Part shown: positions 2,013-23,900 of the stretch, piece after piece
Position numbering within the stretch: position 1 is the stretch's first letter
Layout: each line of letters opens with the position of its first letter
Virus record (IMG/VR): IMGVR_UViG_3300042545_000971
Coordinates: 1-28,728 of that record
From: a virus
Reading direction: 5' to 3' (one strand)
Length of the DNA stretch: 28,728 nucleotides
The notes under the pieces: generated by a model
Told to the model about the DNA's origin: nothing
The model's database searches: none
Seen by the model: the letters and a program-made list of their open reading frames with translations, nothing else
Program-made: the position numbers and the translations under genes

Positions 2013-2669
2013 ATGGCTTTAAGCACAAAAAACATCAAAATTTCGGAAGGAAGACTTTCCAAAACTATTAACCCTGGAAACATTAAGGGTAAAATTTATG
2101 ACATTTCTTTGAAACCTGGATATAATCAAGGAAGTTATTATCTTATATTATCTATTGAAACAGAACCTATTGAAAACTTTGAAGGTTTCTTTATTAACTC
2201 TCAAGATGAATCTCAAGGAAAACATAAAGGTCAAGTAGGTAGAATAAGATATTCTCAATATGCTTTTGAAACTAAAACACTTCCTTCTGGTATTAAAGTT
2301 GATAGAGATGAGAATATTTTAAAAGCTATTTTGACATTAGCAAAAGCACAAGGTATTAGTGATACTATCAACGAAGTAGAAGGTGATACTATTGAAGAAT
2401 TTGTAATTAATGCAAAACCTGTAATTTGTAATGATATTTATTTAAATTGGTGTATTGCGGGTAAAGAATATAGCAATAAAGATGGATATACTGCTTATGA
2501 CTGTTTTATTCCAAAAGTAACAAATAAGAAATTTGGATTTGCAATGGATGATAATGCTGTAATTACTTTTAATGAAGCTGAACACATTATAAAAGAAAAA
2601 AAGAAGCAATCTGAAAATGTTTCTGATTTTGAACCACAGACAAAGAGTAGCGACTTTGATATGTTTTAA
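2013..2669 (+). CDS. ssb: Single-stranded DNA-binding protein (SSB-like)
   Basis: A 218-residue protein with a beta-rich first two thirds (alternating hydrophobic strands such as GSYYLILSIETEP) and a low-complexity, Lys/Glu/Ser-rich tail from about residue 190. The tail ends in acidic and aromatic residues, SSDFDMF, as bacterial SSB tails end in DDDIPF, the docking site for replication partners. No sequence motif proves an OB fold, so the call rests on the tail, size, position next to helicase, Sak4-like ATPase and primase, and resemblance to SSB-like proteins of crAss-like phages. It is the last gene before the terminator at 2687-2720. Confidence 0.65.
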   Translation: MALSTKNIKISEGRLSKTINPGNIKGKIYDISLKPGYNQGSYYLILSIETEPIENFEGFFINSQDESQGKHKGQVGRIRYSQYAFETKTLPSGIKVDRDENILKAILTLAKAQGISDTINEVEGDTIEEFVINAKPVICNDIYLNWCIAGKEYSNKDGYTAYDCFIPKVTNKKFGFAMDDNAVITFNEAEHIIKEKKKQSENVSDFEPQTKSSDFDMF

Positions 2670-2686
2670 TTGTTAATTGTTTGTAA

Positions 2687-2720
2687 ATAAAAGGGGGAGT
2701 AACATCCCCCTTTTATTTTT
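2687..2720 (+). terminator. Rho-independent terminator after the SSB gene
   Basis: A 12-bp perfect stem (2687-2698 with 2705-2716; five G-C pairs flanked by A-T pairs) encloses the six-base loop GTAACA and runs into a T-rich tract. It lies 17 bases after the SSB stop and before the primase start, so it ends the helicase-ATPase-SSB operon. The A-rich left flank might allow some function on the other strand. Confidence 0.85.
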
Positions 2721-2736
2721 ATTTTAATTTTAAACC

Positions 2737-3720
2737 ATGCTAACAACCAAAAATATAATAATAGATTATAAAGACGTACCAACTACATGGATATTTGAGC
2801 ATTATTGCAACCTTAATCAGAAATTAAATGGTCAGGATGTTAAAATAAAAAGTATGTTTAATAATGCTGATAAGATCCCAAGCATGTGTATTTATTATGA
2901 TAAAATAAAAAGCGTATACAAATTTAAAGATTTTTCTAGTGGTAAATCTGGTGAAGGTGCCAATCTACTTATGTATCTGTATAATCTAACATTTAGTGAA
3001 GCTGCTTTTAAACTTATTAACGATTATAAAGAATACATTAAGAATAATCATAAATCAGATGTAAAAATTAATGAATATGCTAAGTTTAAAGTAACAGACT
3101 TTATTATAAAAACATGGAATATATTAGATAGAGACTTTTGGGTAAAATATAATATTGGAACTACTATTCTAAATAAATATAATGTTAAACCTCTTAGTAA
3201 ATACACTATGAGTAAAGAAGAAGATGGTAGGACAGAAAGCATTACTATATCTGGTGATTATTTATATGGATATTTTAAAAATGATGGTACACTCTATAAA
3301 ATTTATCAACCAAAAAATAAAAAAAAGAAGTTTATAAAAGTAAAATCTTATATACAAGGTCTTGAGCAATGTGAAAATCATTCTTATTTGCTTATAACTA
3401 GTAGTCTTAAAGATATTATGTCTATCAAAAGTCTCGGTGTTAAAATAGATTGTATAGCTGCTGATAGTGAAAACACATTTATTCCTAAATCGGAAATAGT
3501 TAAACTTATGGAATCTTATAAGTCTATATCTGTATGTTTTGATAATGATTTACCAGGTATTACATCTATGCAGAAATATAAAGAACTTTATGGGTTTAAT
3601 GTATTTTATTTACCACTCAGTAAAGATATAAGTGATAGTATTAAAGATTATGGAGTTAAGAAAGTTTTATATACTTTTGTTCCTCTAATAAATAAATCAT
3701 TTGAAAATGGCAAAAGCTAG
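2737..3720 (+). CDS. DnaG-type primase with variant Toprim domain
   Basis: A 327-residue primase-like protein that would make RNA primers for the polymerase. The N-terminal third resembles the zinc-binding domain of DnaG-type primases in layout (substrate strand, FKDFSSGKSGEGANLLMYLY segment, helix) but has no paired cysteines to bind zinc. The C-terminal half is a Toprim domain: LLITSSLKDIMSIKSLG at about residues 218-234 is the first Toprim motif with Ser replacing the usual catalytic Glu, and VCFDNDLPGI at about 266-275 is the DxD metal motif. The position after the SSB terminator and next to helicase and HNH genes supports the role. Its last 14 bases overlap the HNH gene. Confidence 0.75.
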   Translation: MLTTKNIIIDYKDVPTTWIFEHYCNLNQKLNGQDVKIKSMFNNADKIPSMCIYYDKIKSVYKFKDFSSGKSGEGANLLMYLYNLTFSEAAFKLINDYKEYIKNNHKSDVKINEYAKFKVTDFIIKTWNILDRDFWVKYNIGTTILNKYNVKPLSKYTMSKEEDGRTESITISGDYLYGYFKNDGTLYKIYQPKNKKKKFIKVKSYIQGLEQCENHSYLLITSSLKDIMSIKSLGVKIDCIAADSENTFIPKSEIVKLMESYKSISVCFDNDLPGITSMQKYKELYGFNVFYLPLSKDISDSIKDYGVKKVLYTFVPLINKSFENGKS

Positions 3721-4132
3721 AAAATCTAAAGTTGTAAAAACAAGAAAAAATGCTGTATCTAAAACTAGAAATTCTGGTACAATGACAGAAGCAGCATTTT
3801 GGTCATTTATAAGATCAGCATTAAGACAGAAGTCAAGATGGTGGAAACCAGTTTCAGAATGTAAACAAAATGCTAGAAGAATATATGCAGGACCATTGAA
3901 AAGACAAAAGTGGGAATTTCAATGTAACTATTGTAAAAAATGGTTTAAAGATAAAGATATAGCCGTTGACCACATTATACCTGCTGGTGCGCTTAACTGT
4001 TGTTATGACCTTCCAGAATTTGTTGAAAAACTATTTTGTGAAGCTGGAGGATTGCAAGTATTATGTGCTAATGGAGAAAATTCATGTCACCATATTAAAA
4101 CGCAAAGTGAAAGAAAAAATAAAAGATGTTAA
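3707..4132 (+). CDS. HNH endonuclease-domain protein
   Basis: A 141-residue protein with a very basic N-terminus (MAKARKSKVVKTRK) and an HNH nuclease fold. A first zinc knuckle, CNYC, is followed by AVDHIIPAG (first His of the HNH motif), then LQVLCANGENSCHHIKTQSE, which holds the second Cys pair and last His. HNH proteins cut or nick DNA with one metal ion. I start it at ATG 3707 inside the primase 3' end; a TTG two codons earlier is less likely. Its fixed place beside the primase makes a replication or packaging nuclease as plausible as a homing enzyme. Confidence 0.8.
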   Translation: MAKARKSKVVKTRKNAVSKTRNSGTMTEAAFWSFIRSALRQKSRWWKPVSECKQNARRIYAGPLKRQKWEFQCNYCKKWFKDKDIAVDHIIPAGALNCCYDLPEFVEKLFCEAGGLQVLCANGENSCHHIKTQSERKNKRC

Positions 4133-4142
4133 AAATATAAAT

Positions 4143-4352
4143 ATGGAAGATTATAAAATAAAAGAAAATGAAAAATTTTTTACTAATGTATTAAATATGT
4201 TAGTTGAAGGAGGTTCATATGGATTTCCTAAAGCTATGCAGACTTATACAAAAGAAAATAATAAATTAGTAGGAAATGCAATAGCTTTATCACATATAAA
4301 AGATATAGTTAGTGATGAATTTTATAATGAAAATTTTAAACTAAAAGAATAA
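4143..4352 (+). CDS. Small hypothetical protein (69 residues)
   Basis: Unrecognised. The open frame reaches back into the HNH gene, but the part before ATG 4143 is only the shadow of that gene; from 4143 it reads as an ordinary small acidic protein (MEDYKIKENEKFF...). It contains VEGGSYGFPKAMQTYTK and a predicted helix-rich C-terminus. No cysteines or membrane segment. It lies 10 bases after the HNH stop and 5 bases before the next small gene, so it is part of the same transcript. Confidence 0.6.
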   Translation: MEDYKIKENEKFFTNVLNMLVEGGSYGFPKAMQTYTKENNKLVGNAIALSHIKDIVSDEFYNENFKLKE

Positions 4353-4357
4353 AACTT

Positions 4358-4537
4358 ATGCCAGAACTACATGAAACAATGATGGGTAAAAAACTTATTA
4401 CATCAGATATACCTAAACTAATAACTAATATTGAAAAATTAGGAGGTATTTTAGAAAAAATAAATGTTACTTTAGAAGATATGTATGACATATTACTAGA
4501 ATTTAAAACTAATCAAAATGAAAGAATTAACAAATAG
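4358..4537 (+). CDS. Small hypothetical protein (59 residues)
   Basis: A short gene beginning at ATG 4358 (MPELHETMMGKKLITSDIP) and ending TAG 4535-4537. The middle shows a heptad-like pattern of Leu/Ile residues (PKLITNIEKLGGILEKINV), so a single amphipathic helix or small coiled coil is likely. Function unknown. It starts six bases after the previous stop, and its last 20 bases overlap the next small gene, typical of compact phage operons. AT-rich codon use matches its neighbours. Confidence 0.55.
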   Translation: MPELHETMMGKKLITSDIPKLITNIEKLGGILEKINVTLEDMYDILLEFKTNQNERINK

Positions 4538-4640
4538 TCAATTAATTCAGTTTATAGAAAGCCTGGAAGCTACTTGTACAGATAAAGTTACAGTAGCTAA
4601 AATTGTAAAATTTTTAAAGGAAAACAATATATGGAATTAA
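4518..4640 (+). CDS. Very small hypothetical protein (40 residues)
   Basis: A 40-codon frame (MKELTNSQLIQFIESLEATC to KENNIWN) that overlaps the previous gene by 20 bases and the thioredoxin-like gene by 10. It exactly fills a stretch otherwise without a gene. The peptide looks like two amphipathic helices, a plausible small helical-bundle or helix-turn-helix-sized protein. No family is recognised. The position in a chain of overlapping starts and stops favours a real gene, but its length leaves doubt. Confidence 0.5.
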   Translation: MKELTNSQLIQFIESLEATCTDKVTVAKIVKFLKENNIWN

Positions 4641-4909
4641 AAATACTTAGATTTGGAGCAGTATGGTGCCAACCATCTAAAGTAGTTGATTCTATTGTAA
4701 ATATGATTAATGAAGAAAATGATAATGTAGAATACATTACATATGATTATTCAGATGATCCAGATATGTTTAGCAAATATAAAATAATAAGTGTACCAAC
4801 ACTTATTATCTTAGATAAAAAAGATAAAGAATTAGAAAAAATTAGAGGAATATTTCCTAAAATAAAATTGACATTATTAATAGAAAAATATAAAAATGAA
4901 AACATTTAA
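4631..4909 (+). CDS. Thioredoxin-fold protein with CxxS active site
   Basis: A 92-residue protein of thioredoxin size. The active-site segment is FGAVWCQPSK (residues 8-17): the first Cys is kept (Cys13) but the second is Ser16, giving CQPS instead of CGPC. The cis-proline loop ISVPTLIIL lies at about residues 54-62. With a single thiol it cannot make the usual internal disulfide, so it may act as a monothiol glutaredoxin-like enzyme, trap mixed disulfides, or serve as a structural subunit (phage T7 recruits thioredoxin as a polymerase clamp). The start overlaps the upstream small gene and the end overlaps the nuclease gene by 14 bases. Confidence 0.8.
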   Translation: MELKILRFGAVWCQPSKVVDSIVNMINEENDNVEYITYDYSDDPDMFSKYKIISVPTLIILDKKDKELEKIRGIFPKIKLTLLIEKYKNENI

Positions 4910-5930
4910 TGAATTAAGTGATTATATACAAAGTGCAGAAGATAAGTTTTATAGTGAGTATTTTTATTTTTCATACAGCAGTATAAATAAATTACTATGG
5001 AATCCAGCAGCTTTTTATCAATCATATGTTCTTGGACAAAAAGAGGAAATAACATCTCCTTCTTTGTTACAAGGTAAAGTAATACACGCTCTTCTACTTA
5101 GTGAGCAATACTTTAATGATATGTATATTATATCTAAGGATAATTTTCCAACAGGAAATTCTAAAATTGTAATTGACAAATTGTTTAATCATTATAAAGA
5201 ACTAAAAGCTAACGGAGATGAAAGAACATCATTAAATGAATTTGAAAATGCTATATTAGATATTCTTTTAGACATGAAATATCATCAATCTCTTAAAACA
5301 GATCAACAAAGATTAGATAAAATTATTACACCTGAAACAGAAAATTACTGGAACTTTCTTACAACCAAAGAAAATAAAGAAGTTATTGATACACAAACAT
5401 ATAATTTCTGTTTAGATGCGACTAATATTATTAGAAAAAACCCAGAGATTTCAGAATTAATGGGTCTTAATTTAACAGAATTTGATAACAAAGAAGTGCA
5501 CAATGAGATTGAACTGAGAAAAAAGTTAGATAGGTTTTCATTTGGACTTAAAGGAATTCTAGATAATATTGTTTTAGATCATGAACATAAAACAATATAT
5601 ATCAACGATCTTAAAACAACTAGTAAAGAACTCAAAGATTTTCCAGAAAGTATAGAATATTATTCATATTGGATGCAAATGACTGTTTATATGATATTAG
5701 TATATTTTAATTATAATAATTATATTAGTAATGAAAACTATAAAATAAAATCTCATTTTATAGTTATTGATAAAAACATGATGACATACGCCTTTGAAAT
5801 AAGTAATAATACACAACAAACATGGTTTAATAGATTTATGAATGAAGTAATGCCTATAGTAGAGTATCACTATACAGAACATAATTATACTCTCCCTTAC
5901 AAATTTTGTAAACAAAAGTTTATTTTATAA
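4896..5930 (+). CDS. PD-(D/E)XK nuclease, RecE/RecB-like exonuclease
   Basis: A 344-residue nuclease of the PD-(D/E)XK superfamily, close in layout to RecE-type/DUF3799 phage exonucleases. It opens with YSSINKLLWNPAAFYQ (residues about 27-42, the conserved N-terminal helix), then QGKVIHALLL near residue 60 (GxxxH motif), GILDNIVLD near 218-226 (first acidic residue) and YINDLKTT near 235-243 (the DxK core). A downstream YYSYWMQMTVYMILV segment matches the 'QxxxY' region of the family. It probably resects DNA ends to give substrate to the Sak4-like ATPase and SSB for recombination or DNA end processing. Confidence 0.82.
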   Translation: MKTFNELSDYIQSAEDKFYSEYFYFSYSSINKLLWNPAAFYQSYVLGQKEEITSPSLLQGKVIHALLLSEQYFNDMYIISKDNFPTGNSKIVIDKLFNHYKELKANGDERTSLNEFENAILDILLDMKYHQSLKTDQQRLDKIITPETENYWNFLTTKENKEVIDTQTYNFCLDATNIIRKNPEISELMGLNLTEFDNKEVHNEIELRKKLDRFSFGLKGILDNIVLDHEHKTIYINDLKTTSKELKDFPESIEYYSYWMQMTVYMILVYFNYNNYISNENYKIKSHFIVIDKNMMTYAFEISNNTQQTWFNRFMNEVMPIVEYHYTEHNYTLPYKFCKQKFIL

Positions 5931-5940
5931 ATTGTAAATA

Positions 5941-6477
5941 ATGATAAAACAGTTATATAGTAAGTATTTTCAGAAATCTAAAATATTTCTTTATCCTCTT
6001 CTCGGACTTCCTAAATCTGAAAAAGATGAGTTTTTGGTAGAAACATTTCTAAAATACGAAGATATAGAAATAGAAGACTGTAAAATCATTTGTCAATATA
6101 ATGTAAAAGATGTTTTATGCTTTCTTAAATACAGAAAAGATAACATATTAAAATCACCATATTTTATTTTTGAGAAACAATTAGATAAAGATGTGTATAT
6201 ATTTATTTTTGATTTATCAAACTTCAAAACAGATTATCACTATTTCTTGTTAGGAAATTATTCTAAATTCACTCAAAAATCAAAAAATCTTATTAAAAAA
6301 TATTTTGGTAACAACTCACAACAGTATGAATATATAGATACTTTTTTATATCCTACAGAATATTTTGAAAAATACTCTGAGCTTTTAGATGTAAATAAAG
6401 AAACTTTAATTTATATTGGAGAGTTGTGTGATAAGTATGATTTTGAAAAAGAATGGTTAAATAACTTAAATACTTAA
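5941..6477 (+). CDS. Hypothetical protein (178 residues)
   Basis: Not recognised. It is rich in aromatic and Lys residues with a central DVYIFIFDLSNFKTDYHYFLLGNYSKF stretch (split here in the protein as strand, loop, strand) and a conserved-looking opening, KIFLYPLLGLP. No catalytic motif or membrane segment is clear. It is separated by 10 bases from the nuclease gene and is the last gene before a promoter at 6488-6518, so it probably ends the upstream transcript or is read through. Confidence 0.72.
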   Translation: MIKQLYSKYFQKSKIFLYPLLGLPKSEKDEFLVETFLKYEDIEIEDCKIICQYNVKDVLCFLKYRKDNILKSPYFIFEKQLDKDVYIFIFDLSNFKTDYHYFLLGNYSKFTQKSKNLIKKYFGNNSQQYEYIDTFLYPTEYFEKYSELLDVNKETLIYIGELCDKYDFEKEWLNNLNT

Positions 6478-9637: not shown

Positions 9638-9967
9638 ATGGATAACGCAACACTTTGTATAAAAACTGTATTAACATCATTATCAATAGCTGAAAAATAT
9701 TTAGATCAATTTATTATAGAAACAAAACCTGTAATGGATACTAAAAAATTTTTAAATTTTGAATTAAAAAAGATACAATCTATAACAAAAGATATTAATA
9801 TTGTAGCAGGTCCACAAAATTCTAAAATTATTAATGATGAAATATTAAATAATTGGGATACCTTAGCAGTAAATAATGTATTGCAAATGATGGTTATGAT
9901 GGATGATAAGAAAAGATTAGAACTTGAAAATTTTGCAGAAGAATTATTAAATAAAAAAATTAATTAA
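9638..9967 (+). CDS. Hypothetical helical protein (109 residues)
   Basis: Not recognised. The sequence is mostly amphipathic helix, starting MDNATLCIKTVLTSLSIAEK and ending with ENFAEELLNKKIN; a helical bundle is likely. It begins two bases after the upstream stop and ends two bases before the ATG of the broken dNMP kinase stub at 9970, which shows that the kinase originally followed it directly. Confidence 0.7.
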   Translation: MDNATLCIKTVLTSLSIAEKYLDQFIIETKPVMDTKKFLNFELKKIQSITKDINIVAGPQNSKIINDEILNNWDTLAVNNVLQMMVMMDDKKRLELENFAEELLNKKIN

Positions 9968-9969
9968 AT

Positions 9970-10020
9970 ATGGCAATCATTGGCATTTCTGGTAAAATAG
10001 GTTCTGGAATTTGTATATAA
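9970..10020 (+). pseudogene. 5' stub of the original dNMP kinase gene, cut by the endonuclease insertion
   Basis: Sixteen codons reading MAIIGISGKIGSG followed by ICI and a TAA stop at 10018-10020. The first 13 residues match the start of the complete kinase downstream (MAILALAGKISSG), and the break comes exactly before the codon for the catalytic Walker A lysine. The stub follows the previous gene by two bases, as expected for the original gene start. The added ICI codons belong to the inserted sequence. Confidence 0.8.
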
Positions 10021-10782
10021 CAAAAAGATAATGTATATTTGTATTATGAAAACATATATTTATACATTATCTCATCCTATTACTAATGAAGTAAGGTATG
10101 TAGGTAAAACAGTAAATCCTAAACAAAGAAAACATAACCATAGTAATATTGCCAGAGATAAAGGAACTCATAAAAGAAACTGGATTAATTCATTAAAAAT
10201 TCAAAATTTAAAACCTAATTTTGAAATAATTGATGAAATAGATTCTGATTGGAAATTTTGGGAAAAATATTGGATTTCTCAATTTAAAGTTTGGGGATTT
10301 AGTCTTTGTAATTATACACTTGGAGGAGACGGTTTAGAAACAAGTAATCAAACATCTTTTAAAAAAGGTCAGATTCCTTGGAATAAAGGAAAAGGTAATA
10401 TGAAAACTTGCATTATTTGTAAAAATCAATTTACTTCATGCAAAAGTGCTAAAAAACTTACTTGTTCTAAATTTTGTGAAAAAGAATATAGAAAAAAAAA
10501 CCAAAGTAATACTACTTTTAAACCAGGATTTATTCCTTGGAACAAAGGAAAAACAGGGTACTCTACCACTAAAAAAGGACAAAAAGTATCAGATGCTACT
10601 AAAGAAAAACTACGAACCATAGCCATTGGCAACACTTATAGGCGTAAACAAGTAAAACAATATACAAAAAATATGAAACTTTTAAACACTTTTGAGTCTG
10701 TTACTCAAGCAAAACAATTAACAGGAATAAAAGCTATTGGTAACGTGCTTACAGGTAGATGTAAAACAGCAGGAGGATTTAT
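10009..10782 (+). mobile_element. Homing endonuclease insertion within the dNMP kinase gene
   Basis: The inserted stretch begins at about 10009, right after the Gly13 codon of the kinase stub, and contains a promoter and a GIY-YIG endonuclease gene. Its right border lies at or a little beyond the new kinase ATG at 10783, since the replacement kinase start (to about 10821) is probably part of what was brought in. No group I intron core, splice-like exon junction or terminal repeats could be seen, so this looks like a free-standing endonuclease gene that carries its own replacement 5' end for the target. Confidence 0.7.
10010..10041 (+). promoter_or_regulatory. Bacteroides-type promoter for the homing endonuclease
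   Basis: TTTG at 10010-10013, 20 bases, then TATATTTG at 10034-10041. The first box begins one base after the insertion point, so the insertion brings its own promoter. Transcription should begin around 10045-10048, on or next to ATG 10046, so the message would be leaderless or nearly so. The same TATATTTG box is used at 6511-6518. Confidence 0.7.
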
Positions 10783-10795
10783 ATGGCAATTTTAG
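10046..10795 (+). CDS. GIY-YIG homing endonuclease with NUMOD3 and NUMOD1 DNA-binding modules
   Basis: A 249-residue modular nuclease. The GIY-YIG domain opens YIYTLSHP (residues 4-11), followed by VRYVGKT at 16-22, a catalytic-type Arg near residue 28, and WEKYWI with the metal-binding Glu near residue 74. A first NUMOD3 repeat is FKKGQIPWNKGK (about 105-116), then a CxxC...CxxxC zinc-like knuckle (about 123-150), a second NUMOD3 repeat FKPGFIPWNKGK (about 158-169), and a C-terminal NUMOD1 module ending GGFIWQF. I prefer ATG 10046 to the upstream ATG 10031, which lies inside the promoter box. It inserts in, and presumably cuts, the dNMP kinase Walker A codons; its stop overlaps the new kinase start. 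Confidence 0.88.
   Translation: MKTYIYTLSHPITNEVRYVGKTVNPKQRKHNHSNIARDKGTHKRNWINSLKIQNLKPNFEIIDEIDSDWKFWEKYWISQFKVWGFSLCNYTLGGDGLETSNQTSFKKGQIPWNKGKGNMKTCIICKNQFTSCKSAKKLTCSKFCEKEYRKKNQSNTTFKPGFIPWNKGKTGYSTTKKGQKVSDATKEKLRTIAIGNTYRRKQVKQYTKNMKLLNTFESVTQAKQLTGIKAIGNVLTGRCKTAGGFIWQF
10771..10785 (+). promoter_or_regulatory. Strong Shine-Dalgarno that decides the kinase start
   Basis: AGGAGG at 10771-10776, six bases, then ATG 10783-10785. No other start I inspected has such a ribosome site; most are preceded only by A-rich sequence. The motif lies in the codons for the endonuclease tail (Ala-Gly-Gly-Phe-Ile-Trp). Confidence 0.75.
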
Positions 10796-11448
10796 CGTTG
10801 GCGGGAAAAATTTCATCAGGAAAAGATACTGTAGCCGACATTATAAAAAAAATTGATGCAGAAAGTGATTGGAAAATTAAAAAGTTTGCATCAAAACTTA
10901 AAGAAATAGCAACTATCCTTACAAGAATTCCTTCAGAAATGTTTGAGAATCAAGACTTTAAGAAAACATATTTAGGAAATGAATGGGATTTAACTAAAAA
11001 AACAGATCACACTCTTATTGAAAATGGTAAAGCTGCTAGTGAATATGTTAAAAGTAAAATGACTGTAAGAGATTTATTACAAAAAATTGGAACTGAAGCT
11101 ATGAGAAATGGTTTACATCCTGATACATGGGTGAATGCTTTGTTTGCTGATTATAAACCTGTTGTAAAAGAATGGGATGAGTTAGGTAATGACACTCTTG
11201 TTCAATATCCTAATTGGATTATTACAGACATGAGGTTTCCTAATGAAATGCAAGCTGTAAAAGCTAATGGTGGCATTACTATTAGAGTAGTTAGACCATC
11301 TGATAAAGAAATACCTTTAGATTTGCATCCAAGTGAAACAGCTTTAGATGATGCAGAATTTGATTATGAAATTATTAATGATGGTACAATAGAAGATTTA
11401 AAAGAAAAAGTAGAAGGAATAATACTTCATATCAATTTAAATAAATAA
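10783..11448 (+). CDS. Deoxynucleoside monophosphate kinase (T4 gp1-like)
   Basis: A 221-residue kinase that would phosphorylate dNMPs to dNDPs for phage DNA synthesis. Walker A is GKISSGKDT at residues 8-16 with the catalytic Lys14. Family features follow: TVRDLLQKIGTEAMRNGLHP, WIITDMRFPNEMQAV (the 'DxRFPNE' motif) and LHPSETALDD near the end (lid/base region). Its first 12 bases overlap the endonuclease stop in another frame. The first 13 residues match those of the broken stub at 9970, but the DNA is only about 24 of 39 bases identical, so the start was replaced rather than simply duplicated. The product looks intact and active. Confidence 0.88.
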   Translation: MAILALAGKISSGKDTVADIIKKIDAESDWKIKKFASKLKEIATILTRIPSEMFENQDFKKTYLGNEWDLTKKTDHTLIENGKAASEYVKSKMTVRDLLQKIGTEAMRNGLHPDTWVNALFADYKPVVKEWDELGNDTLVQYPNWIITDMRFPNEMQAVKANGGITIRVVRPSDKEIPLDLHPSETALDDAEFDYEIINDGTIEDLKEKVEGIILHINLNK

Positions 11449-14023: not shown

Positions 14024-17000
14024 TTATCTATTTGTTGTATTAAATCTTATATCCCAATCTTTTCTAAAATCATCATCAAAAATTGCTCTTATTTGAATTC
14101 CTTCTTTAAATATAGGCATCATTTTTGATAAATATTTTGCAGGTTTTGCTTTTTCTAAAAGATCTTGATCATTTAAAACAAAACCGTATCCTTGACTAAC
14201 AACCGATTCAGTAAATTTAAAAAAATCATCAGCTAATCCAACTACAGGTAGTGGTTTGTTTACAAGATTTGACCAAGAAGGAGCACTATAAAAGAAAGAA
14301 AATTCATCAAAATATTTTCTAAATGCTCTTGCAGCATATGTTCTTAAACCGACATCTTGATCATCGTCATCATCATCACTCAATATTGTAAACATCAATG
14401 CTCCAATACCTATAATCATTAAGAATTCTCTGTACATTGATTTTATATTACCAATATACATATCTATAAATTCACCTTCTGTTATATTAAATTCTTCACC
14501 TTTTTCAATAGCTTCAGCTTTTAATAATAAATATTTTTGTTTAGCTGCTTCTATCATATTTGTTCCACTTGAATTAATTATTCCAGTTAATAATTGGGGT
14601 GCTCTTTTACTAAATAATTCTCCAATCCATAAATTAAATTTACCAATTGTATGCACTTCAAGATCCTGATCATATTTTAATTTTCCAAATCTTTCTTGAA
14701 CCATTTGTGGCATCCATGATCTAAATTGCATAGCCATAGAACCTAACATACCCATTCTAATATTATTAATATCATCTCTACTAGAGTTACCTAAAACATT
14801 TTTGTTTACTTTCTTAATTTTTAATCTAAATCTACCCCATTGTTCACTTTGTAAATCTATTCCGGGTATTTCAATTTTGTCATTAACAATTTTAGCAGTA
14901 TTATAAATTGATTTTGTATCTTTTAAAGTTTTTACTTCATCTTCTATTTTTTTTCTAATAACATCTTGTTCTGCCTTAGGAAGTGAATAAAATGATTCAT
15001 TATATTTATATTTGGCTTTAACATATGTTTTTATATCTACAATCTTTCCATTCTCATCTACCATATGATTTTTCATTATAGCAATTGCAATAGGATATTG
15101 TACAGCTTTATCACTTGCTCTCATCATAAAGAATGCTTTATCTATGGTGTTAGCATTAATAATACTTGAAACAGAAAGTTTATTTATCATTGCTTCTTTT
15201 CTATCTTCTATTAATACATCTGCAACACCTAATAGTCCAAAAGCAATTTCATTTCTTTTGGTTATATCATAAATAGAAGAAGTCCAGTCAGCTGTGTTAA
15301 ATATAATACCTTTACTTGCCTGGAAGAATGCATTACCTGTACCACCCACAAAGTTTGCTGTTCCTGATAAAGGATTTAATGCAAGTGTTTTAAGAGAAAA
15401 GAATCTTGTCATCCATCCGAGTACTTTATGTGCAGAATATTCTTTATCTCCAATCTTAAAAGCTTTATCTTCCATTTTACCGGATTGAATATTATAAAAA
15501 TAATAATTAATAAAGTCTGAAAGTAATTGTGAGTTTATTTCGTTTCCTGGTATTTCTTTTTTAATTCCGCTTTCAAATACAGGTTTACCAAACGGATTGG
15601 TCTCAATGTGAGGTTTATTTTTTTCAACAAACAATAATAATCTTGCTTTATCTTCAATTTCAGACATTGACTGATAATTAGCTAATTGTGCAGACCAAAT
15701 ACCAAACACTCTAAACAAATCCATACTCTTTTGAGAATAATCTAATGTACCATCTTCTCTTTCTATACCCATATCTCTAATGAAATGTGTAGGTATAGAA
15801 TGTTCAATAGCACCTGTGATCGGATTGATTTGAGGAGCAAATGGTGATTCTCCAGATTCAACTTCTAAACTTTCAAATATTCCTTTTTTAGAAAACATAT
15901 CACCACCAAAAACAAATTGTTCTAATTTATTCCTACTTATATTAGGAATAAACGCAGGAGAATAATCATCAATTAGCCCTGCTTTATTAGATTTTTTTAG
16001 TAAATCCTGAAAAAAGTTATAAGTTTTTAAAGCAATCGGACTTGCTTCTAGTTTTTTCCATTGTTCAGTTTGCCATTTTTCTTTTGGTTTTAAATATGAA
16101 TTTAATACTTTTTTACCATTGTAATTATCCATGTTTAAATAAGCATTCTTATTTTTATTTTTACCGCCAATATTTACATCATGTTTTTTCAACCAGTTAT
16201 TATATGCTTCTTCCTGAAGTTCTTTATTTCTTCTTTCATTTTTAGAATCATACACAATAGTTTCATAAAACTCTTTTTGTCTTATTTTATCTTTATTGAA
16301 TTTTTCTTCATTAAATTCTGTGTTGTCAATTAACCATATACTATCTTCTGATTGCACAGCATCTTGCATTTTTTTATAAAACTCACTTTGATATTTTTTT
16401 AAAAACTTACCGGTCCATTCGCCTTTAGCATTATAATCTAAAAGAGGTTTAAATAAATCTTTATCAGAATATCCTTTAGAACGAGCCCATTCAACATATT
16501 CTTTTCTTAATGTAGAAAGTTCTTCATAATCTTTATTAAATAAGTTATCTCTTTTATTTTGAGCATCACCAAGAATTCTACTAAACACCCTAAATGCTTT
16601 TTGAGGAATAGTACTTAATGAACTAAACATACCTGTTAATTTAGATATTTCGGTTTCAGCATCTAACAAATTTACAATACCTGTTTTTTCTTGTGAAAAT
16701 TTAAATGCAATATTTTTAATTGCATTTTGCATATCACTAAGTACAATGTCAGCAGAGGTATTCATTTGGTTGTAGTCATTTATTATTTCATCTACAACTT
16801 CTTTAACATACTCTTCTTTTGTTTCTTTTTTAATTTTTTTAAGTTCATTCATGTAATTATTAAATACACGTGTAGTATTTGTAAATACTTGTAATATTTC
16901 TAATGATTCAAGAGCATCTTTTTCAGTGAGATTGTTACTTTCAATTAATTTTTTATATTTATTAATTTCATAATTACCAAGGTCAATAAACTTTCTAATA

Positions 17001-20000
17001 TCACCTCTGAGTTGCAAATCTCTTACGGCGTTTTTATATTTAGCTAATTCTATTTGTTTACGCCTACGTTCATCTTCCGTTCTATATTTTTTATTTTCAA
17101 GAATATCCATTACACTGCTTAACTTCTTAATGTATTCAGATAGTTCTTTATCAGCAGATTTTTCATCTCTTAATGTAACGGGAAGTAAATAATTTTTATT
17201 ATCAGGAATTGATGAAAGATCAAAACTACCCATTTCAATTTTATTAATTCCTTCAATAGTTCGTTTCTCTTCTTTTCCTGTGTATGAATAAACTACTTTA
17301 ATAGGAATAGCCCTTACAAGTCCAAAGTTTTTAATGTCATAATGTGTTTGAAGAATTTTTTTATACTCTTGTAACTGAATTCTATACATTGTTTCTTTGT
17401 ATGATTTTAATTCAGTTTGTTCTTTTCCAATTTCTTGACTCTTCCAATCATATATGTTTGCTGTACCATCTGGTTCAATTACTAACAAGTCAATACTACC
17501 AGCAACATCTTTTATAGGGTCATATATTTTAACCTCACGCATGAATTTAGTGCCGGGAGCATTGTAGTTTTCAATTAAATCTTGTATATATTTTTCAAAT
17601 AATTTATAAGGATCTGTGTCAAAATATTTACTACTAGAAGCAGCTGGTATTTCTCTTACAAAATGTGTTTCAGGATCAACATAAACGTCTATTATATCCT
17701 GCATCATTTCGTGAATTACATCACCATAATCAGCTTTGAGAAGATCTATTTTCTTTTGTATTTCGCTTCTGTTGTCATTTGGAAATTTACGTTTTAACCA
17801 TGCATCAACATACTTTGAAGTAACTGAAGATTTTATATCTTTACCATTAATAGTATAGATGTGTCTTTTTTGTTTGGTTTTAGGATCAACGCTGTTGTCT
17901 AATTGAATATCTTTTTGATGTTGTTCAAGTTTTTCTATTCCTTCTAATTGATAATACTCACCTGTTTCTTGAATATTATCTTTAGATAAATTACTAATAT
18001 CTGCTTTTAAAATATTTTCTGCTGATTGAACAAAGGGATCTGTAACAGACTTAGTAAATAATTTTTTAATAAAATTTAATAATTTATCCCACCAATTATT
18101 AAATTCTTTTATTTTAGATTCTGACTCACCAACAGCAGAATGTTTAACAATGTGTTGTGCAATAAGTTTACCTATTGCTTCTTTTTTAAGTTTATTAATA
18201 TTAAGACTACCGTCTTTATTTCGATATTGACTGTTATTTCTATATGTCTGAACTGTGTCTTGGTATATTTTATATCCCGTAATTTTAGACATCATTTCAA
18301 TAAAGAGAGGATTATTCTCACCCAACATTTCAACAAAAAAGTGAGCAGCTTCTTCCGGTAATGTTGTTATATCTGCTTTACCTTCTATCACTTCAATTAT
18401 CTTATTAAGCATATCTGCTTTAGCAACAGCAGATAATTTATTACCTTCTGCATTTCTTATTTCATCTACAGATTTAACAGATACACCAATCTTTTCTAAA
18501 AAGTTTTGTACTAATACATTTAATTCTTTATTGACTTTTTCTGTAGATTGTGTTTCTTTTTGAAGATATATTTCTTCTTTATTTTTTTCTGTTAATGTTA
18601 TTTCATTCCATGTATTACCATATTCATCAGTAATAAAAGCATTAGAATTTACATAATATTTATCACTGAATTTACCATCTTTTTTATCTTGTTTAGTTAC
18701 AGAATTTTGTATAGAATTAAATTCCTTTTGAGTTATTTCTTTACCATTTTTTAAATACTGATTTTTGTCATTTAGTCTTTCATATTTATCATTGTTAAAG
18801 ACAAATTCATAATTCACAAATTTACTTTCTTTCCCATAAACATCGTTTATAAGAATGTTAGTTACAGTATTTTCGTAAAAGTTATAAATAGGTTTTAAAG
18901 CACCAAATCCTTCTGTTTCTACTCTTTCAAGTTCTTGTTTAAGTTGATTTATTTCTTCATTTATGTTTTTATTTAATTCTTCTACTGATTCTTCTATTTC
19001 TACAATAGTATATTTAGGGTTATTATAAGTTTTTAATTTTTCATCTGCTGCTTTTATATTAGTTATAAAAATTCCACCAAATATACCACCCGATATATTA
19101 TTTCCTTTTTCGTCTGCTATATAATACTTTTTATTGGGTGTATTTGTTTTTTGACTTTCTCTTAATTTTATTAAATCTTCTTTTTGCTTCTTAAATTCTT
19201 CTAAAGTAGTATGTCCTTCAACTTTACTAGCTGTATTACCACTTGGAAATAGTACTTTCTCATATCTTTTCTTAGCACTATCTTGTATAATAGATTTAAC
19301 AAAGAATGTTACCCAATTATTATCTTTGTTTAAAAGTTGTAAAAATTGATTTTCTTTAATATTTGGTTTATTTAATTCTGCACTTTTAAATTCATATTCA
19401 GTAATGTATTCTTTTAGTTTACCTACAGCGTGTTTATAAAAACCTTTTTCATCTTTACCATAAGCAGTAGAATTTGGATAAGTGCCTATTTTAAAAATTT
19501 CTCCTTTTATTAAAGATTTATGAATTAATTCAGTTTTATCTCTACCCTTTTGAAATAAATCAGATTGTACTTCTAGTATTCTACGAGTTTTAGTTACAAT
19601 ACCTTTTTCAGATTGTTTATTTGTAACACTTCTCTTATTAGAAATAATTAAATTAATATCTTCTTCATCATATCCTTGTTCAATCATTGATTTTTTTAAA
19701 GCATCATAATCTACTTTTTTACCTTCAATAACTTGTTCATCACTTCTAAACCATCCAATACCATTATCTGTAGCAAACTTAGCATGACCTTCAATACTTG
19801 GAATAACTTCTGGTGTAGCTATTTCATTCTCTGTATAGTTAGTTCCTCCTGGAACTGTTAGATTAGAATAGTATTGAGTTGGTGTTTTAACTTCATTAGC
19901 TGCTTTATAAGCTTCTTCAAATTCTTTTTTTGTTATTGCTATATTTCCTTTATGATAAGTAAAGGAATTTTCTATAGGATTAAAATCTTCATCTAATTCT

Positions 20001-20947
20001 ACTCCCATAAAATAGTCTTTTCCTTTATAAGAAAAAGCTTCTTCATGACCTTGGTCGTTATTACCAACATAACTTGTTGCTTTTATTTCATCAGTGGTAT
20101 TAATCTTAACAGTATAACTATAATTAGCAGCAAATGATGTTAACTTTTCTTCAATAGTATTACCTTCTGATTCTTTTAATAAATTAACTTGATCTTTAGG
20201 TATTTGAAAATCTTGTTGTATTTTATTCCAGAATGTATTATTATTACCTATTTGTTTCCAAAGTTTATTTATTTTATCTAAATTATTATATAAGTTTGAT
20301 ACAACTTTAAATTGATATTGTAAATTAGATTCTTCACCTATAGGTTTATATGCAGGTTCAACTACAGTATTACCAGTAACAAACTTTTTAAAATTTTCTA
20401 TGTCTTGTTTACCCGTATCTAAGTATTGAGAATATAGTTGTAATGCTTGTTGTTTTTGTTGTGGGGTTATTTGACCATTAAATATTTTTTCAGCTTTTAA
20501 TCTTAAATTATTATCTTGTTTTTCTAATCCATTAGTAAACCATAAATCTAATGTTTCAGTATCTTCATTATAAGATAATCTACCACCTTGTAAACCATCT
20601 TCTAATAATATTACATCTAATCCTTGTTTTAATGTTTTAACTGAGTTTTCAATACTTTGTCTTTCATTAACATTAAATCCAGCTTCTTTTAAATTTTTAA
20701 TTAAAGTAGGTAAATCATTTAAAGTATTTAAAGACTTTGTTTTAAATCCTAAAGCTTCATATACTTGATTTGCAAACTCTTGATTAGATTCAAATAGTTC
20801 TTCTACTCCTGGTTTAATTGAAACTTCATATTCATTTTTTGGAACAACTCCTTCATACTTATCCCATAAGTAATAAGCCATATCTTCACCTCTAGAAGAT
20901 ACCAATGATTTCCAAGAATCTAAATTTTTATTAGGACATGTTGCCAT
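14024..20947 (-). CDS. Giant polyvalent virion/cargo protein (2307 residues)
   Basis: A multidomain protein read right to left. It opens CPNKNLDSWKSLVSSRGEDM, a start I associate with polyvalent phage proteins. At about residues 365-700 is a polyvalent-type domain with NLTVPGGTNYTE, HAKFATDNGIGWFR and RRILEVQSDLFQKGR, matching the 'GTNYRE...IEEIQSDW' pattern. Near residue 863-876 is LPEEAAHFFVEML, zincin-like but with Glu for the first His of HExxH. At about 1075-1260 is a RecB/Cas4-type PD-(D/E)XK domain (GDVIHEMMQDI, GSIDLLV, YDWKS). Near 2175-2190 a hydrophobic segment (FLMIIGIGALMFTIL) is followed by six Asp. The gene starts one base after the RNA polymerase gene. It is probably injected to process or protect DNA; the role is inference. 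Confidence 0.82.
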   Translation of the reverse strand: MATCPNKNLDSWKSLVSSRGEDMAYYLWDKYEGVVPKNEYEVSIKPGVEELFESNQEFANQVYEALGFKTKSLNTLNDLPTLIKNLKEAGFNVNERQSIENSVKTLKQGLDVILLEDGLQGGRLSYNEDTETLDLWFTNGLEKQDNNLRLKAEKIFNGQITPQQKQQALQLYSQYLDTGKQDIENFKKFVTGNTVVEPAYKPIGEESNLQYQFKVVSNLYNNLDKINKLWKQIGNNNTFWNKIQQDFQIPKDQVNLLKESEGNTIEEKLTSFAANYSYTVKINTTDEIKATSYVGNNDQGHEEAFSYKGKDYFMGVELDEDFNPIENSFTYHKGNIAITKKEFEEAYKAANEVKTPTQYYSNLTVPGGTNYTENEIATPEVIPSIEGHAKFATDNGIGWFRSDEQVIEGKKVDYDALKKSMIEQGYDEEDINLIISNKRSVTNKQSEKGIVTKTRRILEVQSDLFQKGRDKTELIHKSLIKGEIFKIGTYPNSTAYGKDEKGFYKHAVGKLKEYITEYEFKSAELNKPNIKENQFLQLLNKDNNWVTFFVKSIIQDSAKKRYEKVLFPSGNTASKVEGHTTLEEFKKQKEDLIKLRESQKTNTPNKKYYIADEKGNNISGGIFGGIFITNIKAADEKLKTYNNPKYTIVEIEESVEELNKNINEEINQLKQELERVETEGFGALKPIYNFYENTVTNILINDVYGKESKFVNYEFVFNNDKYERLNDKNQYLKNGKEITQKEFNSIQNSVTKQDKKDGKFSDKYYVNSNAFITDEYGNTWNEITLTEKNKEEIYLQKETQSTEKVNKELNVLVQNFLEKIGVSVKSVDEIRNAEGNKLSAVAKADMLNKIIEVIEGKADITTLPEEAAHFFVEMLGENNPLFIEMMSKITGYKIYQDTVQTYRNNSQYRNKDGSLNINKLKKEAIGKLIAQHIVKHSAVGESESKIKEFNNWWDKLLNFIKKLFTKSVTDPFVQSAENILKADISNLSKDNIQETGEYYQLEGIEKLEQHQKDIQLDNSVDPKTKQKRHIYTINGKDIKSSVTSKYVDAWLKRKFPNDNRSEIQKKIDLLKADYGDVIHEMMQDIIDVYVDPETHFVREIPAASSSKYFDTDPYKLFEKYIQDLIENYNAPGTKFMREVKIYDPIKDVAGSIDLLVIEPDGTANIYDWKSQEIGKEQTELKSYKETMYRIQLQEYKKILQTHYDIKNFGLVRAIPIKVVYSYTGKEEKRTIEGINKIEMGSFDLSSIPDNKNYLLPVTLRDEKSADKELSEYIKKLSSVMDILENKKYRTEDERRRKQIELAKYKNAVRDLQLRGDIRKFIDLGNYEINKYKKLIESNNLTEKDALESLEILQVFTNTTRVFNNYMNELKKIKKETKEEYVKEVVDEIINDYNQMNTSADIVLSDMQNAIKNIAFKFSQEKTGIVNLLDAETEISKLTGMFSSLSTIPQKAFRVFSRILGDAQNKRDNLFNKDYEELSTLRKEYVEWARSKGYSDKDLFKPLLDYNAKGEWTGKFLKKYQSEFYKKMQDAVQSEDSIWLIDNTEFNEEKFNKDKIRQKEFYETIVYDSKNERRNKELQEEAYNNWLKKHDVNIGGKNKNKNAYLNMDNYNGKKVLNSYLKPKEKWQTEQWKKLEASPIALKTYNFFQDLLKKSNKAGLIDDYSPAFIPNISRNKLEQFVFGGDMFSKKGIFESLEVESGESPFAPQINPITGAIEHSIPTHFIRDMGIEREDGTLDYSQKSMDLFRVFGIWSAQLANYQSMSEIEDKARLLLFVEKNKPHIETNPFGKPVFESGIKKEIPGNEINSQLLSDFINYYFYNIQSGKMEDKAFKIGDKEYSAHKVLGWMTRFFSLKTLALNPLSGTANFVGGTGNAFFQASKGIIFNTADWTSSIYDITKRNEIAFGLLGVADVLIEDRKEAMINKLSVSSIINANTIDKAFFMMRASDKAVQYPIAIAIMKNHMVDENGKIVDIKTYVKAKYKYNESFYSLPKAEQDVIRKKIEDEVKTLKDTKSIYNTAKIVNDKIEIPGIDLQSEQWGRFRLKIKKVNKNVLGNSSRDDINNIRMGMLGSMAMQFRSWMPQMVQERFGKLKYDQDLEVHTIGKFNLWIGELFSKRAPQLLTGIINSSGTNMIEAAKQKYLLLKAEAIEKGEEFNITEGEFIDMYIGNIKSMYREFLMIIGIGALMFTILSDDDDDDQDVGLRTYAARAFRKYFDEFSFFYSAPSWSNLVNKPLPVVGLADDFFKFTESVVSQGYGFVLNDQDLLEKAKPAKYLSKMMPIFKEGIQIRAIFDDDFRKDWDIRFNTTNR

Positions 20948-20948
20948 A

Positions 20949-23900
20949 TTAACATATTGATTTTAAAATGTTACCAATTTGAAGAGGGGTGTATCCAATA
21001 CTTTCTAATAATTGAGAATTAATTTGTGATATAGGATATGCATTTCCATCCATTAATTTAAGTGTTTTTTCTTCTACTGGTTTAGTTATTGTTTGTTTTG
21101 TAATGCTACCGATATTAACATGAATTTTATCAGAATATTTAGCAAGATCCCATGTATTTTTAGTTCCACCATCAGCAGGTACATTACCTTTACCATAAGT
21201 ATATGCAATCATGGAATCTGATTCTTTAGCTACTTTTTCATTTCTTATAAACATTGCTTTATTGCTTATTTCTGATTCATAAGTAACATCAGCACCTTTT
21301 TCTATTGCTTCTTCAATTTCAGATATTGTATTTACACCTAATAATTTACTAAATATAGAATGATAATAATTTGCAGTACCACCTGCTGTACCACGTTCTC
21401 CTACAAATTTTCCATTTTTAATTTTAGCTGGTAATTTTAATTTTAATCCATTAACTTTTCCATCTAAAAATAATCTCACAGCTATGTGATCAGCAAAAGC
21501 TGCTCCACCCGAAATTAAAGTATCATAATTATTTACTTTAGATTCTGCATCTGCAATCATATTATTCCATTCATTAAGTGTTGGAACTTGACTTCTACCA
21601 GCTGTACCAATAATAGCAATAGTTCTGGGTTTTATTTGAGTTGAAGGTTGTACCATAGATTGATTTAATATTGTAGCAGCAGCTTGTGGATTTAATTGTT
21701 GTAATGTTTGTATTGCCGCTTGTGTAGCTTCTTGAAGATTACGTAATGTATCTTGTGTTACTGCTGGAACACTTGCTAAAGAACTTATTGAAGGTGTTTC
21801 TTCATATTGAGAAGGTTTTTTATATCCTTCAGGAGTAACAATATTATTCTTTTTAAGATTAGATTGTAACTGATTTTCCATTGATGTTTCGGTGTAATTT
21901 CTTCCATCACCTGAAGCAACAATTGGTGAATAAATAGCGTATTCTCTTTCTTTAAATTTTCCTTGAATTGTTTTGTAACCAATTCTTTGATGAAGATAAG
22001 TGTCAAATGCTTTATAGAGCTTACCAAATTTCTTCAGTTTTTCAATCTGACTATCAGTTATTCCATTCTTACGTTTAGAAGTTGCAATGTATTCATAATT
22101 TGAATCAGAGTAATCTGTATCTAATAATACATTACCTGTATACTTTTCAAACTTTTTAAATTGGGGTCTTATTACAATATTTCTATCAGATTTATTATTT
22201 TGATGAAATTGCTTCCATACCAGATTAGGATCAATAGTAAATTCACTATTCATATATACATCTAATATACTATTAACCACTTGACTATACAAATGTGCGG
22301 GCAATATTTTAGTATAATTAATTGTACTATCTTGAAGACCTGACTGAAGAATACTAAAAATAGACAGATTGTATACAAAGTTTTCAAGTTGTGTATTACC
22401 AGAAGCCTTTGCGTAATCTAATAAATTGTTTATAGACTCAATTAATACATCATTTTTAAATGTAGTCATTTTATTTCTAAACAGTTTAATATTATCTTGA
22501 TCATCAACATTATTAGCAAATATAGGTATTAGTTCTTTAATTGCTAAATTTTGAGATATGTTATAATCTTCAGAATTTTTAAGTAATTGTAATTGTTTAG
22601 TGATAGAATTTTCTCCCATCATTAATTCTTTAAACTTAGCAGATATATTTGTTTCAATCTCCCCAAGTTTAAAATTTGTATTCTGAATAACATATGTAAT
22701 AAAAAATCTCTGATATTTATTTATTAATAATGACTTATCATCATTGGAAATAAACTTTTCTCTGTCTTCTAAAAACTCATACATTTTTTCAAATACAGGA
22801 TATGCTCTTCTATCTAATGAAATAAACATATTTTCAAATACGGAAAAAAGATCTTCTTTTTGTTTTTTCATTTCCCCAATAAATGTCTTATCTAAAATAG
22901 AATCCGGGTTCTTAATAAATCCTGCTTCAAGCATTCTATTCCATCTAATAAGCTGCAATTGATTTTCAATAATAGTTTTTGTTTTTTTATTATCATATCC
23001 TATTGCACCAATAAATTCAGTAAGATAGCTTGACTGCTCAACATAATCTAAATAATCTGTTAATAACATAATCTGCATAGCTGCATCATCTTCTGTAATC
23101 TTATATTTAGGATTATTTAGATTTTTAATTGCATTCTTTAACTCATCTACTGTTGGCTTTTTATACTTGTTTTTGATTTCATTAATTCCTTGAAATAATT
23201 TTTCTTTAAGAGCTTTTATTTCCACTCTTAAATTAATCACTTCTTGTTCATTAAGACTTTCTGTAGTATTTAATATATTTGTTTTTTCATTAATCTGATC
23301 AATAACAGAAAACATTTCATTATTGTATATTTTCACATATTTAGAAATACTATTAATGAAAATCTGCTCTCTAAAAGTTACATTTTTATTTACTTTTCTG
23401 AAAATTGAGTTATTCATGTTTTCTGACTTCATAAAATTCTCAACAGCAGGTTGATTAAATAAATATGCAATTTCTTTCATTGGCACCCCAAGCTTTTGTA
23501 AATAGAACCAAGTGCCCGCAGTATTAAAATTAATATTTAAAGAAAATACAAAAGGATCTTTAGCGGCATCTACAAATCCAGAAAGTGCTTCAGATATATT
23601 TTCAGAAATCCATCTACCTTCAGCATCTGTTTTAGCATTTATGTAAAACTCACCTAATTTAGACTCGTTATGAGAAAGATTAATACTTATTGCTTTTACA
23701 TATTTTCCATCTTCTGTTTTAAATTCGGGATCATATTTAACTAAGAATTTCATTTTTGAAACTTCATACTTACCAGATAATACAATATCTGAAATTTGTG
23801 ACATAATGTGACTTGTAGATTGCAATGCTGCAATACCAACAAGACGCTTACCAGTTAAATATCTTTCACGTGTTTCAGCTGATTGAATAAATTTACGAAG

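Follow-up and report, generated by a model that had tools for sequence, protein, structure and literature searches.

The 28.7-kb virus record IMGVR_UViG_3300042545_000971 (positions 1 to 28,728; this whole 28,728-nt stretch is the window referred to below) carries what is, judged by its sequence, a GIY-YIG endonuclease gene inserted within the Walker A motif of a phage dNMP kinase gene. The question raised by this locus is how the interrupted gene can still be read as a whole kinase. The features concerned are:

9638–9967, + strand: upstream gene of 109 aa with no assigned function; syntenic left flank, also found directly before the kinase in the endonuclease-free contig L028
9970–10008, + strand: probable old native kinase start, now the stub MAIIGISGKIGSG, ending just before the Walker A Lys codon; 46 of 48 endonuclease-free starts are closer to it than to the replacement
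10009–10821, + strand: inserted cassette (promoter-like left end, endonuclease gene and replacement kinase start); left-end DNA common to L146 and L001, and the same architecture in 11 contigs including the window (right end not seen in L070)
10010–10041, + strand: Bacteroidota-type promoter-like site, TTTG-N20-TATATTTG, at the left junction; spacing identical in 11 of 11 cassettes
10046–10795, + strand: GIY-YIG homing-type endonuclease, 249 aa (Pfam PF01541, conserved columns, structure model)
10783–10821, + strand: replacement kinase start, MAILALAGKISSG, supplied by the cassette, with its ATG within the endonuclease Ile-Trp codons
10783–11448, + strand: complete hybrid dNMP kinase frame, made up of the replacement start and the resident body from the Lys codon at 10822

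The interrupted kinase gene and its insert

The old kinase start appears to survive as a 13-codon stub directly 3' of the 109-aa gene. From the ATG at 9970 it reads MAIIGISGKIGSG and then ICI before a stop codon (10018–10020), without reaching the Walker A lysine, as an earlier note on this DNA had said. What keeps the kinase downstream whole is a second start at the end of the insert: the final endonuclease codons, GGFIWQF-stop, hold the kinase ATG at 10783, the two frames overlap by 13 nt (endonuclease stop at 10793–10795), and the kinase, beginning MAILALAGKISSGKDT, then runs for 221 aa to 11448. It matches the phrog_139 dNMP kinase (E 7e-50) and Pfam DNMK (E 1e-20) and includes Walker A, which bears out the view that this is not a split gene. 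The match between stub and replacement exceeded all 30 null comparisons, ruling out chance, and the arrangement also recurs in other contigs; the kinase N-terminus is indeed present twice around the insertion, with the second copy alone continuing into the enzyme.

The insert had been described as an intact GIY-YIG/NUMOD gene. The GIY-YIG assignment holds, since the PF01541 match (E 8e-6) lies above the family cut-off, while NUMOD is suggestive at most, as the PF22083 match (E 4e-4) falls below its own. Residues Y6, Y18, G20, R28, E73 and N89, which we take to be the catalytic positions of the GIY-YIG domain, are invariant across 20 aligned endonuclease sequences including that of the window. 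In a structure model the N-terminal 90 residues are mostly confident (whole-model pLDDT 71.9); a fold search of the PDB with this model gave nothing below E 0.001, and among its weak top-ranking matches were a 5hmC-specific restriction endonuclease, Slx1, UvrC and I-HmuI. The dN/dS of the endonuclease was 0.09–0.21 in five comparisons (kinase bodies, 0.23–0.49), which indicates that the enzyme has been kept functional. A start at 10046 is more likely than one at 10031, because the latter lies inside the -7 box and the frames of L012 and L025 have no start codon before the equivalent of 10046.

The promoter-like site at the left junction matches the -33/-7 promoter type of Bacteroidota, for which the consensus is given as TTTG/TANNTTTG (PMC6847099). 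A single cassette of the 11 (L067) departs from it, with a G-to-A change in the last base. Within the window alone such sites are not above chance (4 sites against 1.55 expected; 8 of 100 shuffles had as many). If the G of the box is placed at -5, then +1 would be the A of the ATG at 10046, and a leaderless message is possible. No close named relative of the window was found by DNA; 36 records share only short matches with it, of which 29 are Flavobacterium phages, and one relative occurs in a Lacinutrix MAG, together pointing to a likely flavobacterial host. Elsewhere the window carries, on its minus strand, two very long adjoining reading frames (14024–20947 and 20949–28586; 2307 and 2545 aa), the former having no PHROGs match at 1e-3.

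Recurrence of the cassette and origin of the two starts

A kinase scan of the viral collection gave 64 loci, most with one kinase and no match to the window endonuclease, and further scans used endonucleases and left-end DNA as queries. Stub and insert were found in ten further viral contigs (L001, L012, L025, L026, L048, L067, L068, L070, L073 and L146), in which L001 is of the window's own lineage (96.6% identity across 4.3 kb) and L025/L026, L048/L068 and L067/L070 are related pairs, the last being 99% identical over 1000 nt upstream. After merging of related contigs, seven distinct backbones are represented, counting the window. In the window and nine other contigs it is the 5' end that has been replaced; the tenth, L070, ends inside the endonuclease, so that its right end and replacement start are not seen. 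The expectation that endonuclease tails of relatives would carry kinase starts was thus borne out.

Stubs of all 11 contigs end alike, between the P-loop glycine and lysine codons or two to three bases beyond, at the left end of the cassette, and the exact left-end patterns (one type in 8 contigs, the other in 2) occur in the viral collection solely at kinase P-loops. Like GIY-YIG homing endonucleases, the gene occupies one site in genomes that have otherwise diverged. Four uncultured-phage records (636–735 kb) also match the L012 endonuclease, and the genome collection yielded two kinase relatives only. All loci come from environmental assemblies, and the junctions recur in independent samples.

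Which of the two starts is native is best seen in L012, which can be compared with the endonuclease-free contigs L018 and L022 (upstream DNA 88–91% and kinase body 82–86% identical). The kinase start of L018 and L022 is 94–97% identical to the L012 stub and 61% to the L012 replacement; the stub is therefore what remains of the earlier start, and the replacement has another origin. This reading of the stub is decisive for L012, and for the window it follows from the nearest available relatives. The nearest endonuclease-free relative of the window, L028 (upstream about 70%, kinase body 86.6% over 426 nt), has a start that is just 67% identical to the stub, and 52% to the replacement. In the endonuclease-free relatives inspected, such as these three, the single kinase begins where the stub begins. 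The starts of endonuclease-free relatives had been predicted to resemble the stub, and this was found for 46 of 48 starts in the case of the window, and for 51 of 53 distinct 30-mers in a larger set; none of the 48 or 53 was more than 64% identical to the window replacement, so that relatives already carrying the downstream start, which would have spoken against the proposal, were not seen.

For other cassettes these counts of stub against replacement are less clear: in the set of 53 they are 25 to 26 for L012, 26 to 23 for L073 and 28 to 17 for L067, and in the set of 48 they are 25 to 14 for L012 and 32 to 7 for L073. For L012 and L073 the set of 53 gives hardly any distinction between stub and replacement, and the nearest relatives decide. 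Such unclear counts are expected, because the carried starts are ordinary kinase starts themselves. No close endonuclease-free relative was found for L067 or L146, and no donor phage for the replacement starts, the best natural matches being 60–83% identical over 30 nt.

The replacement start travels with the endonuclease. Comparison of backbones gives 93–96% identity for endonucleases and 88–100% for replacement starts, against 54–70% for upstream DNA, kinase body and stub, as the following pairs show (% identity):

L012–L067: endonuclease 96, replacement 91; upstream 55, stub 61, body 60
L012–L048: endonuclease 94, replacement 97; upstream 57, stub 55, body 57
L048–L067: endonuclease 94, replacement 88; upstream 55, stub 64, body 54
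L025–L073: endonuclease 93, replacement 100; upstream 55, stub 70, body 54

Over the seven backbones, replacement identity tracks endonuclease identity (Spearman 0.54, a value reached in 54 of 5040 permutations) and does not track that of the body (0.15), upstream DNA (-0.20) or stub (-0.12); stub identity does not significantly track upstream DNA (0.31; 688 of 5040) or body (-0.02). The window and L146 have the left end and catalytic half in common (92% over 300 nt) but not the tail and replacement start, and the same is true of L012 and L025; tail and replacement start therefore behave as one module.

Stubs themselves vary between close relatives. That of L048/L068 is 91% identical where the endonuclease is 100% and the flanks 98–99% identical, which fits expectation for a stub released from function. 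Those of L067 and L070 (nt 2915–2953 in each) share 27 of 33 bases despite 99% identity upstream, and this may reflect stub decay or co-conversion with the insert, since their endonucleases also differ. From the insertion point, the window (nt 10822–11120) matches L028 (nt 4041–4340) at 92–98% for about 300 nt and then at 54–74%. The tract looks like co-conversion, though L028 has no insert, and recombination unrelated to homing could also have produced it.

A proposed cut-and-replace mechanism and its rivals

These comparisons are very probably explained by a mobile homing cassette, in which the promoter-like site and the GIY-YIG endonuclease gene are joined to a substitute for the 5' end of the target. 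During mixed infection the enzyme would cut the conserved Walker A (P-loop) site of a cassette-free dNMP kinase gene, and repair from the insert-bearing genome would copy in promoter, endonuclease and replacement start. The resident start would stay on the left as a dead stub. On the right the carried start would be joined, with the frame kept, at the glycine that precedes the Walker A lysine, the resident body being retained from the lysine codon and thereby read again as a whole protein. Even with donor and recipient flanks at just 55–60% identity, the junctions are no more than a few bases away from the P-loop. With the new ATG placed in the final endonuclease codons and the upstream DNA now running into a stub, a phage that lost the endonuclease gene would tend to lose its kinase too. 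Insertion, the stub as old start, shared endonuclease and replacement start, and diverged backbones are the parts that the sequence evidence covers; from these we infer cutting, homing, expression from the carried promoter, kinase activity and the effect on retention. The earlier proposal that the endonuclease brings along a substitute 5' end of its target is supported by the comparison of L012 with L018 and L022 and by the joint travel of the two parts across backbones.

In the window, in type B and in L077 (see below), the replacement ATG is read from endonuclease Ile-Trp codons (ATATGG), and the second kinase codon therefore begins with G (MA-, MA- and ME-, respectively); the window stub happens to begin MA too. 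In L146 the overlap of endonuclease and kinase is just ATGA, and in type C there is none.

Several observations count against this explanation. The start of L028 differs considerably from the window stub, stub identity does not significantly track upstream DNA, and in the window alone the promoter-like site is not above chance. Recoding that would protect the replacement from cutting is not supported (when natural pairs with the same protein identity are ranked, 0 of 7 stub-replacement pairs lie in their lowest 10%); its divergence is ordinary, and the explanation gives no account of how the filled site escapes cutting. Against simple rescue stands the type C cassette, found in three contigs and two backbones (L025/L026 and L073; L025 nt 3945–4020, L073 nt 3584–3660). 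Its carried start, MKKENKKHP-NLIGINGRIGSG, ends in GGT-TAG (GGT TAG GT AAA) and misses the frame of the kinase body by five bases; rescue therefore fails there or needs an unusual reading event. The L025 body is nevertheless still open (dN/dS 0.26 against L018), and much of the divergence between these two bodies may be older than the insertion. One can speculate that type C phages do without the kinase, or that ribosomes pass the stop; a ribosomal hop from GGT to the next GGT would, equally speculatively, restore GSGKDT (Walker A) exactly.

Removal of nt 10009–10821 as a self-splicing intron or intein, with the stub as a first exon joined to the body, would give an ordinary kinase, since the stub ends and the body starts at a matching codon boundary, and in type C removal might also yield a whole kinase. 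The whole window has no match to an Rfam family at the gathering threshold, and the six matches at E up to 10 in nt 9900–10950 are at chance level, none being an intron family. Moreover, the stub stops by itself and the body has its own in-frame ATG, so that a replacement start would be pointless. Splicing, for instance by an undescribed element, is accordingly very improbable, in agreement with the earlier note, which had rejected an intron. That note's main alternative supposes an old tandem pair of kinase genes, one of which decayed to a stub, and an endonuclease that entered between them; it has in its favour the two successive kinase starts of the window. It fares worse still and is hardly credible: two full tandem kinases in relatives would have argued for it, and of 142 loci where a kinase match reaches 60% length or more, none has a second such match; in 11 contigs the stub breaks off at one P-loop codon, where the left end of the cassette lies; and the lone kinase of the endonuclease-free L018, L022 and L028 begins at the stub position.

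Alternatively, the insertion may have duplicated the resident 5' end as a target-site duplication, the copies having diverged afterwards, in which case the second start would not be foreign. The two copies in L077 share 23 identical bases, as in a young duplication, and the first origin of such a cassette may be of that kind. Against this, replacements are 88–100% identical between backbones that are otherwise at 54–70%, yet they differ from their resident stubs (52–76%). The L012 stub is still 97% like L018 where the replacement is at 61%, which is therefore not slow divergence in place. Duplication is incompatible with L012, L048, L067, L025 and L073 as recent events, and as a general explanation it is improbable.

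Other inserts and known systems

Homing genes are thought to enter conserved genes by self-splicing (introns, inteins), by gene splitting or by taking intergenic positions. The locus described here shows a further route in a phage, in which the gene is broken and a replacement part is brought in; the same cassette package occurs in several distantly related viral genomes, and in the window the interrupted gene still reads whole. On balance we favour the broader view that phages carry a natural class of home-and-rescue elements, i.e. homing genes that replace the end of the gene they break, either 5' (the window and its relatives, L077) or 3' (L003 and perhaps also L016/L017). Some of the 5' forms would have their rescue ATG built into the C-terminal Ile-Trp codons of the endonuclease (ATATGG), the parasite thus becoming part of the host gene start and not being easily lost.

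L077 (a 175-kb contig) provides a second target gene with the 5'-replacement design. Within nt 2922–4436 a stub, MRIIYRISD, precedes a GIY-YIG gene, after which comes a complete gene with the start MENKLRIIYRISD, and a 23-bp perfect repeat flanks the insert. The gene occurs in 79 other contigs, with the plain start M[KR][ILV]IYRISD in 64 and not in 15; the copies of L277 and L278 carry an extension of their own, and in none of the 79 does an endonuclease match lie directly before it. When 78 chosen endonuclease loci (most same-contig repeats omitted) were tested for the same design, 72 downstream frames could be scored, and among the best 25 of these 72, scores above all 30 null comparisons were obtained for six kinase cases with an in-frame replacement, for L077 and for L088. 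L025 and L073 are absent from the best 25 because their replacements are out of frame. The L088 match does not align at the starts and was not counted. In a survey of 83 distant loci plus 4 controls (repeats included), L077 was the sole convincing new case; L109 (z 6.3) was rejected because its score is due to low-complexity sequence.

A mirror image is seen in L003 (nt 417–1884), where a complete kinase is followed by a GIY-YIG/NUMOD3 gene and a second kinase C-terminus. Of 54 distinct natural C-termini, 48 resemble the second copy more closely and 5 the first. The distal copy is therefore the probable old end, which makes this a 3' replacement. Perhaps L016 (nt 3980–6020) and L017 are similar, with kinase, HNH-like gene, second C-terminal kinase piece and LAGLIDADG gene (PF03161, E 4e-25), the comparison of C-termini, at 31 to 21 of 54, clearly favouring neither as the old end; the HNH-like reading has no Pfam match at 1e-3 and is 39% identical to the insertion in L056 (see below). 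Together with the splits and the in-frame insertion described below, this one kinase gene seems to have been entered in several ways (5' replacement, 3' replacement, split and in-frame insertion), which makes direct comparison possible.

The closest known parallel is provided by mitochondrial mobile ORFs (mORFs) that replace gene C-termini, described for Allomyces atp6 and for Glomus atp6, atp9, cox2 and nad3 (PMC3630166) and also discussed in PMC4019555. As in the window, a free-standing endonuclease ORF lies within a gene without intron or intein and brings a foreign gene end, giving a hybrid, while the native end remains as a remnant nearer to element-free relatives than the carried copy is (PMC3630166; L012 is the decisive case here). 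In the fungal elements it is the C-terminal end that is replaced, in mitochondria, and the Glomus enzymes are given as LAGLIDADG except for a GIY-YIG in atp9 (PMC3630166), whereas in the cassettes described here a 5' start is replaced, in phages, with a promoter-like site brought along and the replacement ATG within the endonuclease gene or beside it. The C-terminal fungal form has an apparent phage counterpart in L003. A phage nuclease survey mentions interrupted genes, and the 5'-replacement design is not described in the part of it drawn on (PMC10448857). Within the open-access literature, of which coverage was limited, no phage case and no 5' case of end replacement was found, which is not proof of absence.

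The design also has an engineered counterpart. Synthetic home-and-rescue gene drives use a recoded substitute copy of their target. Like the window cassette, they couple a cutter of the target gene to a functional substitute for the part cut (PMC7968924); they are engineered, in Drosophila (PMC7968924), while the window is natural and without recoding beyond ordinary divergence. As a natural counterpart of such drives, the cassette offers a testable account of why the element persists, and in type C the rescue part looks broken.

Among T-even phages, mobE in Aeh1 nrdA and mobA in T4 gene 60 are reported to split their targets into two assembling polypeptides (PMC2988022). They share with the window the location of an endonuclease in a functionally critical part of a phage gene (PMC2988022), but in the window one complete polypeptide is restored. 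The split type is resembled by L055 (nt 2238–3785) and L059 (nt 2071–4252), in which the kinase is split into two frames by inserted genes, at other positions; the inserted gene is a GIY-YIG in L055 and has no Pfam match in L059. The intergenic seg/mob endonucleases of T4, some of which contain host promoters within their genes, said to favour retention (PMC2988022), likewise lack an intron, but the window insertion interrupts coding sequence and also supplies it.

In phage ShiLan an out-of-frame HNH insertion in a methylase gene is described, with no detectable intron or intein, the host frame running through the insertion (PMC11855218), which it does not do in the window. L056 (nt 3998–5326; AP2 match below the cut-off), with a 442-aa kinase frame that contains an in-frame insertion of about 170 aa and no stop, may resemble the ShiLan case.
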